From: Deltaproteobacteria bacterium
GTDB taxonomy: Bacteria; Desulfobacterota; GWC2-55-46
Length of the DNA: 36,190 nucleotides
Assembly: GCA_016234855.1 (NCBI GenBank)
Contig: JACRNO010000046.1
Coordinates: 1 to 36,190 of the forward strand
Direction of reading: 5' to 3'
Positions within the stretch are counted from its first letter, which is position 1. Every line of letters begins with the position of its first letter. The position numbers and the translations under genes are program-made. Under the pieces are notes generated by a model. The model saw only the letters and a list, made by a program, of their open reading frames with translations, ran no database searches and had not been told where the DNA came from. Positions 4,794 through 32,365 of this stretch are shown piece by piece.

Positions 4794-4930
4794 GAAGCTC
4801 TGATTAATTCCGTTTTTGTCATTTCGAGGAGCGCTTTTGCGACGAGAAATCTTGTAACTGTTGATTTTCCTCAGCATAAGATTTCTCGCTGCGCTCGAAA
4901 TGACACTTCAGTATAATTAATCAGAGCTTC
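4794..4930. repeat. MITE-like element with 16-bp perfect terminal inverted repeats
   Basis: GAAGCTCTGATTAATT (4794-4809) and AATTAATCAGAGCTTC (4915-4930); internal inverted copies of gtcatttcgag...gagaaatct. Confidence 0.85.
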
Positions 4931-12131: not shown

Positions 12132-12345
12132 GCAAGCTCTGATCAAGGAAACCCTGATTTATTAAACTGAATTGTCATTTCGAGCGAAGCGAGAAATCTT
12201 GTTTTTAAATAATTCAGTAAGTTACAAGATTTCTCGTCGCTTGTGCGCTCGTGTGCGCTAACGTTATGTCTTCGGCGCAACGTTGTGCTTTGGCGCCAAA
12301 AGCGCTCCTCGGAAATGACAGACATAGGAATTAATCATAGTTTCC
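12132..12345. repeat. degenerate copy of the 4794-4930 element, carrying an internal insertion
   Basis: Shares gcaagctctgat, gtcatttcgagcgaagcgagaaatcttg, gttacaagatttctcgtcgc...aaaagcgctcctcg-gaaatgac and ttaatca(t)ag with 4794-4930. Confidence 0.7.
12241..12297 (+). repeat. 10-mer/19-mer modular cassette, copy A
   Basis: ttgtgcgct-cgtgtgcgct-aacgttatgtcttcggcgc-aacgttgtgctttggcgc-c; splits the flanking repeat at cgtcgc^aaaagcgc. Confidence 0.8.
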
Positions 12346-18811: not shown

Positions 18812-18954
18812 CTTGTGTAGCTCAGGGCTTTAGCCCTGGATAAACGGCGTTGGACGCGGCGCCAAAGACACAACAATAGCGCACAAGCAATATCAGGCCT
18901 GAAGGCCTGAGCTACAGACATACGTCATTTCCGCGTGTCTCTGGCGGGAATCCA
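18812..18954. repeat. composite REP doublet plus hairpin, carrying cassette copy C
   Basis: ttgtgtagctcagggctttagccctgg...atatcaggcctgaaggcctgagctacagacatacgtcatttccgcgtgtctctggcgggaatccag. Confidence 0.75.
18859..18887 (-). repeat. 10-mer/19-mer cassette, copy C (single 19-mer and single 10-mer)
   Basis: gcgccaaagacacaacaat-agcgcacaag is the reverse complement of the copy A/B units. Confidence 0.7.
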
Positions 18955-30070: not shown

Positions 30071-30987
30071 GACTTCAGGAACCTCGACGTTGAGAGCAGG
30101 CTGCCCGCGGCGCCGAGGACGATGCCGAAGGCGAAGACCGCGGCAACGGCCATCGTCCAGCTTACCGGCACGTCGACCACGAACCGGAGATAGACGGGCA
30201 TGCGGCTGAGGAGCGCCCAACGCCCGGCGTATATGATGAAGACTGCCAGAAGCCCGCCGATAAGCCCCTGTAGCACCCCCTCGACGAAGAACGGGAGTTT
30301 GATATAATTATCGGTCGCGCCAACGAGGCTCATTATCTCTATCTCGTCCTGCCTCGCGTAGACGGTAAGTCTGACCGTATTCGATACGATAAAGACGGTC
30401 ACGCCAACGAGGAAGATGCCCGCGCCAAAGGCGGCCACCTCGAAGAACCTCAGGAACGCGGCGAACTTCTCCACCCACTCCTGGCTGTACTGAACCTCCT
30501 CGGCCCAGTCCATCTTCTTGAACCGCTCCACCACGCCCGCGGCCTTCGCACCCTCCATATACTCCGGGTCGAGGCGCAGTTCAATCGAGGCGGGCAGCGC
30601 CCCTGCGTCCACGCCCGCAAGCACCGCCTCATGCCCCTTCATCCCGGCCTTGAGCTCGGCATAAGCGTCGTCTTTGGATATATACGCCACGCTCTTGATG
30701 CCCGGCACGGCAAGAGAAGCGCCCTTTATCCTCTCTATGGAGCCGGGCCCGCGCATGGCCGTATCTTTGATATAAACGACGATATGGGTGCGGTCGCCCC
30801 AGGTCGAGACCGCCGCATCAAGGTTGATAAAGACGAAGAGGAACTGGGCGAGGATGGCCAGCGAGAACCCCACGGTAAGCGCCGTGACCACGGTCGTAGC
30901 GAGGTTGTCCCTGACCGAGCCTGTTGCCGAGCCGAGCAGATGAACGATGTTTGAGCCTTTTGACATATCCTTATCAACCTTCCGCAA
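30064..30987 (-). CDS. ftsX: cell division protein FtsX
   Basis: 4-TM permease topology; NTVRLTVYARQDEIEIMSLVGATDNYIKLPFFVEGVLQGLIGG. Confidence 0.94.
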   Translation of the reverse strand: MRKVDKDMSKGSNIVHLLGSATGSVRDNLATTVVTALTVGFSLAILAQFLFVFINLDAAVSTWGDRTHIVVYIKDTAMRGPGSIERIKGASLAVPGIKSVAYISKDDAYAELKAGMKGHEAVLAGVDAGALPASIELRLDPEYMEGAKAAGVVERFKKMDWAEEVQYSQEWVEKFAAFLRFFEVAAFGAGIFLVGVTVFIVSNTVRLTVYARQDEIEIMSLVGATDNYIKLPFFVEGVLQGLIGGLLAVFIIYAGRWALLSRMPVYLRFVVDVPVSWTMAVAAVFAFGIVLGAAGSLLSTSRFLKSC

Positions 30988-31082
30988 CCACGGGATTGCT
31001 TCGCGGAGTTTATCCTGAGCGAAAAACCGAGATTCCTCGCTACGCTCAGAATGACATAGCGAAGGACTCTGTTAGACTCTAT

Positions 31083-31390
31083 TTGTCATTCCCGAGGTCT
31101 TAGTCCCCGACTAATACTTTCGGGGACGAATCCATACCACCCAAAGACACAAAAGACTGGATTCCCGCCAAAAACACGCGGGAATGACGTATATCTGTAG
31201 TTCAGGCCTTCCGGCCTGATACTGCGCGTCCAGCGCCCGTTATTCAGGGCAAATCCCCCGACCCACGCCAATGGGCGTGGGTGCCCCGCCCCCGTGTGCG
31301 CTCGTGTGCGCTAACGTTATGTCTTTGGCGCAACGTTATGTATTTGGCGCCTTTTTCAAAGGGGGAAGTTTAAGCCCTGAGCTACACAAG
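31083..31390. repeat. nested repeat island between ftsE and ftsX
   Basis: CATTCCCG hairpin repeat, REP doublet, inserted CCCCC/GGGGG element, and inserted 10/19-mer cassette. Confidence 0.8.
31293..31351 (+). repeat. 10-mer/19-mer modular cassette, copy B
   Basis: (cgtgtgcgct)x2, then aacgttatgtctttggcgc and aacgttatgtatttggcgc, then c. Confidence 0.85.
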
Positions 31391-31464
31391 ACGACGCACG
31401 TATAATCCAAACCGGCAGGTCTGAGTCTTCACAATAACGGGTTAAGGAATTAATCAGCGGTTCT

Positions 31465-32121
31465 CTAACCTGAGACCACCCTGCCCTGTTCAAGCACAAT
31501 CGCCCTCTTCGCGAACCTGTCGATAAGACCCTGGTCGTGAGTGGCCACTACCACGGTGGTGCCTTTGTTGTTGACCTCTTTAAACAGCTCGATAGTCTCA
31601 AGGGACAGATGCGGGTCGAGGTTGCCCGTCGGCTCGTCGGCGAGTATGATGGCCGGTTCCTTGACAACGGCCCTGGCTATGGCCACGCGCTGCTGCTCGC
31701 CTCCTGAGAGGGTCTCGACCTTGAAGTTGGCCCTGTGCTGCAGCCTGACGTAGCTGAGCGCCCGCGCCACGCGCTTTTTCAGCTCGCCAGTCTCCACCCC
31801 CATGACGCGAAGCGCAAGGGCGACGTTGTCGAAGACGGTCTTGTCGTGCAGGAGCTTGAAGTCCTGAAAAACGAAGCCGATGCGCCTTCGCAGGTAAGGC
31901 ACATCGGAACGCGGTATCTTTATATAATTCCTGCCGTCTATTATGAGCTGACCGCCGGTGGGGGCTTCCGAACCGAACATGATATTGAGAAGGGTGCTCT
32001 TACCCGCGCCCGAAGGGCCGGTGATAAAGACGAACTCGCCCTTTGCCACCTTGAGCGTCACGTCATGGAGCGCCGTGCCGGCGCCCTCAAACGTCTTGTA
32101 GACATGGAATAATTGTATCAT
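31465..32121 (-). CDS. ftsE: cell division ATP-binding protein FtsE
   Basis: Start refined to MIQLFHVYKTFEG; Walker A GPSGAGKST, LSGGEQQRVAIARA, ILADEPTGNLD. Confidence 0.93.
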   Translation of the reverse strand: MIQLFHVYKTFEGAGTALHDVTLKVAKGEFVFITGPSGAGKSTLLNIMFGSEAPTGGQLIIDGRNYIKIPRSDVPYLRRRIGFVFQDFKLLHDKTVFDNVALALRVMGVETGELKKRVARALSYVRLQHRANFKVETLSGGEQQRVAIARAVVKEPAIILADEPTGNLDPHLSLETIELFKEVNNKGTTVVVATHDQGLIDRFAKRAIVLEQGRVVSG

Positions 32122-32365
32122 CACGCTCTGGGCCCGGCGTAGAGCCGGGAGACGGGGCCGGCCCCGGTAATCCGGAAAAACCGGCCTCGACCCTTTCATT
32201 ATCCCAATTGCGATATTTCATGTCAAACGAAATCAGGGCAATCCTATCCTTGATTTTTAGGATTAACATGTATATCATTTAAGTTCACCCGGCGGATACG
32301 CCTGAATGACCGCCCTGAATCCCGCTGACGTCTTGCGCGAGACAAACGCTCCACCACGAAGATTA

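Follow-up and report, generated by a model that had tools for sequence, protein, structure and literature searches.

Repeats within repeats between ftsE and ftsX: a GTAG-type REPIN, a C5/G5 element and a self-nesting 29-bp unit

The means by which REPs and other very small repeats spread is a long-standing question: the movement of REPs has largely been inferred, and we know of no enzyme for the small dispersed repeats (SDRs). According to papers citing Elhai 2008, from which the SDR definition used here was taken, the SDRs of Nostoc, for instance SDR5, measure about 20 bp and occur both dispersed and in tandem, with SDR5 inserting precisely inside the HIP1 repeat (PMC4390886, PMC3116915, PMC2884548). 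TnpAREP of E. coli and Stenotrophomonas cuts at CT and the Marinomonas enzyme at CT and CA (PMC8266576). REP dimers inserted in palindromes have been described as GTAG-23 of T. roseum, GTAG-15 of A. variabilis and CGTC-1 of H. neapolitanus (PMC3733652), and ISPpu9, ISPsy8, ISRm22 and other insertion sequences target REPs (PMC1525189).

The anatomy of the repeat stack that lies between ftsE and ftsX in the genome studied here is almost beyond doubt, and the stack is best explained as non-autonomous mobile repeats inserted one into another. The outermost of them is an ordinary GTAG REPIN, and the genome has a RAYT (REP-associated tyrosine transposase) gene flanked by such REPs (PMC3116915, PMC3733652, PMC8266576). 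As in the REP dimers mentioned above, a small palindromic repeat is found within another palindrome, but there the REP is the insert, whereas here it is the outer host and there are further layers and self-insertion. As with the REP-targeting insertion sequences, insertion into the REP is site-specific; those are however full elements with a transposase gene, whereas the inserts described here are non-coding and measure 29-120 bp.

The window, i.e. the whole stretch of 36,190 nucleotides that was analysed, corresponds to contig C43 in a draft genome of 2.30 Mb and 95 contigs that is about 95% complete. Repeats fill a spacer of about 498 bp (30967-31464) between ftsE (31465-32199, minus strand) and ftsX (minus strand, from the ATG at 30966). 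Read on the plus strand, positions 31197-31385 form two REPs in inverted orientation, a REPIN of the GTAG type, adjoined by a CGTC-tagged palindrome on the minus strand (31161-31189; CGTCATTCCCGC...GCGGGAA) that agrees in both features with the CGTC superfamily (PMC3733652). REP1 (31197-31221, plus strand) consists of the GTAG tag (31197-31200) and the hairpin TTCAGGCCTTCCGGCCTGA, and is separated by a spacer (31222-31243) from REP2 on the minus strand. The hairpin of REP2 is split into a left half, TCAGGGC (31244-31250; ...TTATTCAGGGC to 31250), and a right half, TAAGCCCTGAGCTAC (31371-31385), the GTAG tag of which reads CTAC on the plus strand at 31382-31385, so that a GTAG tag stands at the palindrome foot in both REPs. 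A second inverted pair occupies 18817-18916, and the GTAG REP family is present in high copy, with 175 matches in the genome versus none for the control.

A sequence-only reading had described a REP doublet whose right arm is split by a CCCCC/GGGGG element, with about 120 bp inserted at the hairpin apex, and the anatomy at 31197-31385 agrees: the insert is exactly 120 bp (31251-31370; AAATCCCCC...GGGGGAAGTT, also read AAATCCCCC ... TTTTTCAAAGGGGGAAGTT) and its C5/G5 element sits at the apex of the REP2 hairpin. The intact equivalent that it quoted, at 18812-18846 on the minus strand, has the sequence given; the intact form TCAGGGCTAAAGCCCTGAGCTAC occurs at several loci, and the second REP hairpin is uninterrupted at other loci as TTATTCAGGGCTAAAGCCCTGAGCTAC. 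The left part of the C5/G5 element (AAATCCCCC...GCCCCC; 31251-31293) contains a hairpin, CCCACGCC-AATG-GGCGTGGG (31260-31285), which is itself a repeat, and the right part (TTTTTCAAAGGGGGAAGTT) lies at 31352-31370. Between these parts is the composite GTGTGCGCT [CGTGTGCGCTAACGTTATGTCTTTGGCGC] AACGTTATGTATTTGGCGCC, in which an outer 29-bp unit, all pieces being on the plus strand, is divided into its left 9 bp (GTGTGCGCT; 31294-31302) and right 20 bp (AACGTTATGTATTTGGCGCC; 31332-31351) by an inner 29-bp unit (31303-31331) that interrupts it at GCGCT^AACG. A cassette, here placed at 31294-31351, does split the insert as had been read, but what had been taken for a 10-mer and a 19-mer proves to be one 29-bp unit cut in two by a second copy. 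The nesting is thus deeper than that reading saw, the evidence supporting at least four levels, REPIN > C5/G5 > unit > unit, with the CCCACGCC hairpin as a further layer. Across the genome, 69 matches to the 211-bp region were counted, and the DNA fold of the repeat block has a z of -4.6; a search of the window with Rfam gave two tRNAs only.

Intermediates of this nesting are preserved elsewhere in the genome. Bare REPINs are found at L012, L016, L017 and L018, and the cleanest intermediate, a REP with only the bare 40-bp C5/G5 element, at L118 (3187-3242). The CCCACGCC hairpin is added, without the unit, at L025 (C51:22100), a single unit at L010, and the nested unit in the window and at L002. 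C5/G5 elements with a unit and without the CCCACGCC hairpin also exist (L026), the hairpin being likewise missing from the L118 element, and C5/G5 elements bearing units occur outside REPs at L005, L009, L023, L029 and other loci. Because these intermediates come from several loci rather than one, they give the order REP > C5/G5 > unit > unit, and the relative chronology proposed from the sequence, with independent copies of the middle element lacking the cassette, is supported. The C5-in-REP junction is identical at about 15 loci, therefore either the composite itself has multiplied or the apex is a favoured insertion site, and what the nesting gives is a local chronology rather than a single dated event for each repeat family. 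That the C5/G5 element is a MITE with a TA duplication seemed possible from the copies in REPs but was rejected on the copies outside them. At L027 (about 224-272) the apex of a REP hairpin holds a near-perfect palindrome, AACTTCCCCCTTTTTCAAAGGGGGAAGTT, forming one long hairpin.

The 29-bp unit has the consensus (T/G)TGTGCGCTAACGTTATGTCTTTGGCGCC, also given as KTGTGCGCTAACGTTATGTCTTTRGCGCC, and contains an imperfect inverted repeat. Its 28-nt core, with at most three mismatches, has 170 matches in the genome while the reversed control pattern has none, hence its abundance is far beyond chance; the same search of 62 further genomes from the class gave no match. For the 19-nt right half there are 199 matches versus one for the control, and exact matches to the unit were absent from viral contigs. 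Unit statistics were taken from stretches around matches, which cover about 152 of the roughly 170-199 copies. These 152 units form 87 clusters, of which 43 are single and the rest self-nested or tandem, with self-nesting at two fixed sites, S1 (GCGC^TAAC) and S2 (TGTC^TTTRGCG). Cluster length plus one equals 29, 58, 87 or 116 in 86 of the 87 clusters, a rule that is partly conditional, as the matcher allowed substitutions only and indel-bearing units were counted as flank. The stricter test of the rule is that excising exactly 29 bp restores an outer unit or a known host repeat. Identical composites recur across different host repeats, which suggests that the composite moves as a whole. Within the window, a self-nested pair on the plus strand (12241-12297), the outer copy of which has a 1-nt deletion, is inserted at GTCGC^AAAAGCGC, and the empty host repeat is found at 4829-4859; in the REPIN at 18817-18916, the spacer between the REPs holds a single unit on the minus strand (18857-18886).

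With a length within 20-100 bp, dispersed copies, precise insertion in repeats and no coding capacity, the unit has the properties of an SDR as characterized in the papers cited above. It resembles the Nostoc SDRs, as there described, in being very short, dispersed or tandem and precisely inserted in another repeat; it differs from that description in its 29-bp length, imperfect inverted repeat and CT/CA target, in inserting into itself at two fixed points and in appearing to move as 29n composites, and we did not find it in Cyanobacteria. With GTAG REPs it shares size, hairpin, lack of target duplication and CT/CA junctions, whereas its consensus has neither a GTAG nor a CGTC tag, it does not form inverted doublets (41 neighbouring pairs have the same orientation, three the opposite) and no RAYT of its own adjoins it. 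Our search of an open-access library gave no earlier account of a 29-bp unit nesting in itself at fixed points and continuing to move as 29n composites.

Units are inserted in a fixed orientation relative to each host repeat, the main hosts being the C5/G5 element (32 copies), CCCTC/GAGGG (13) and GTCGC^AAAAGCGC (11). A C precedes 141 of the 142 raw copies; since the last C of the unit is the same as the C that precedes it, the junction is ambiguous by one base, and no target duplication was seen beyond at most this one ambiguous C. A MITE of a DDE-type insertion sequence, with terminal inverted repeats and target-site duplication, was rejected on account of the missing duplication. Junctions in 19 distinct contexts comprise 14 CT, four CA and one CG, against a window background after C of about 22% CT and 18% CA. 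Joining at CT or CA, as in RAYT-type movement and as judged from the junctions themselves, is thus seen in 18 of the 19 contexts, with a binomial probability, calculated by hand, near 8e-7, which is a guide only as the contexts were defined by hand. About 40% of unit copies start with G instead of T, giving a CG left junction that plain CT cutting does not predict. The first base varies with the site: all copies have G at GCGCT^AACG, nearly all G at TGTC^TTT and all T at GTCGC^AAAAGCGC.

The unit lies at the 5' edge of the hairpin loop in the C5/G5 element, in CCACGCC^AAGTGG, in GTCGC^AAAAGCGC and at its own S1 site. Strict apex targeting by the unit is rejected, other hosts showing positions in the arm, at the foot or without a hairpin (the rpsD site, L114). 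A strand bias was not accepted either: mean GC skew on the unit strand is -0.018 (p = 0.016, 72 loci), which is weak and confounded with gene direction, and this weak orientation bias against G-rich strands could stem from lagging-strand preference or from gene direction.

At the ftsE/ftsX junction, five relatives have none of the repeat block and so present empty ortholog sites: the two genes abut or overlap in G001, of the same genus, and in G002, G003, G004 and G014, of the same family. The nearest named relatives of the FtsX protein are about 32% identical to it. The rpsK-rpsD spacer (L111 972-1139; G000:C24:10271-10438, G000 being this genome) holds two units, one of which immediately precedes the ribosome-binding sequence of rpsD (...CAAAA[29 bp]GGGAGGATAAGG); this site is empty in G014 and G002 (...TTTAAAGGGAGGAGAAG), and the ftsE-ftsX and rpsK-rpsD spacers compared in relatives contain no units. 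Of the genomes searched, this one and G004 alone have GTAG REPs in abundance, and both have Y1 genes. G004 has a Y1 gene, 207 GTAG REPs of the same sequence and no units, whereas a search of G001 detected no Y1 gene, GTAG REPs or units, and this patchy distribution of GTAG REPs suggests horizontal gain or loss. The C5/G5 hairpin has 80 matches in this genome and is found in 28 of the 40 genomes searched. In G010 and G017, relatives of another genus, the middle element's hairpin part, AAATCCCCCGACCCACGCC..GGCGTGGGTGCCCCG, recurs dozens of times without the 29-bp unit (L031-L051).

Four RAYT genes, on contigs C5, C23, C88 and C93, pass the NCBIfam REP_Tyr_transpos cut-off. The gene on C88 (NF047646, 98.5 bits, cut-off 80) is flanked by GTAG REPs of the family in the window (L123 at 1352, 1381 and 1921), which would explain the outer REPIN layer, while those on contigs C5, C23 and C93 have their own, unrelated inverted repeats. 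At L197 (1394-2075) the fourth RAYT gene stands between long inverted repeats (CGTTCCCACGCTCTGCGTGGGAACG...). None of these four candidates has the 29-bp unit beside it, and no cognate RAYT for the unit was found.

RAYT-type single-strand HUH chemistry is suggested for the unit by its size and hairpin, by its clean insertion and by the CT/CA junctions. The REPIN layer would have been moved by the resident RAYT flanked by GTAG REPs; into it came the C5/G5 element at the apex of one REP hairpin, then a unit in the C5/G5 stem and a second unit inside the first. The 29-bp unit would be a minimal REP-like passenger: a RAYT-like HUH tyrosine transposase would excise it as single-stranded DNA by cutting at a C^T at both ends and would join it to a C^T or C^A elsewhere; a unit that had swallowed another copy would keep its ends and move as a 58, 87 or 116-bp composite. 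Because the unit flanks none of the RAYT genes and carries no REP tag, we put this forward as a leading hypothesis and not as a demonstration, with about an even chance of being right. That the unit is a standard REP is contradicted by its lack of a tag and of a cognate gene and by the copies that begin with G. The same points count against the RAYT mechanism, as do the lack of inverted doublets, the one-base ambiguity of the junction, the unrelated inverted repeats of three of the four RAYT genes and the relatives that have Y1 genes without the unit.

Part of the evidence would also suit accounts of another kind. A few ancient 29-bp insertions might have been spread by homologous recombination or gene conversion, with nested and tandem forms produced by replication slippage and no active transposition, as could be expected from the many copies in the same few hosts, the recurring identical composites and the tandem arrays. 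Yet the same boundaries are found in about 19 distinct contexts, some of these are single-copy sites (the ribosome-binding region of rpsD and the spacer between rpsK and rpsD, for example), slippage does not lodge one copy within another at two fixed points while restoring the ends, and the CT/CA bias would go unexplained, all of which makes this account unlikely. That the junctions stem from assembly or binning is most improbable: contigs C25, C27, C91 and C92 of this 95-contig draft do end in or near units, but the same junctions appear on many contigs with different flanks, cluster lengths follow 29n, and units adjoin ordinary genes (ftsE/ftsX, rpsD) with orthologs in relatives.

The absence of a cognate gene among the four RAYTs, a genome that is only about 95% complete in its 95 contigs, and a unit without a REP tag would be expected if the unit were moved by something other than a RAYT, be it an unrecognised recombinase, a transposase that was lost or left unassembled, or an RNA-templated process. 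We regard this as a minority possibility, though a real one, given that absence of target duplication, hairpin and CT/CA targeting all fit the chemistry of TnpAREP (PMC8266576) and that a search, which was not systematic, gave no positive evidence for another enzyme.

It is conceivable, if on balance doubtful, that a RAYT mobilises a tagless hairpin that does not flank its own gene, that the ends of the unit alone define the transposition unit and that each self-insertion creates a larger functional element (29, 58, 87, 116 bp). If true, the 29-bp unit would count among the smallest mobile DNA elements known to target themselves. With about 170 near-identical copies and none in relatives, the genome represents a recent burst and offers a useful system, in which all nesting intermediates are preserved, target sites are clean, four candidate transposase genes are at hand and the CT/CA rule is directly testable in vitro. 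It also shows that a tight operon junction, that of ftsE/ftsX, can absorb about 500 bp of stacked repeats, which may affect ftsE-ftsX coupling.
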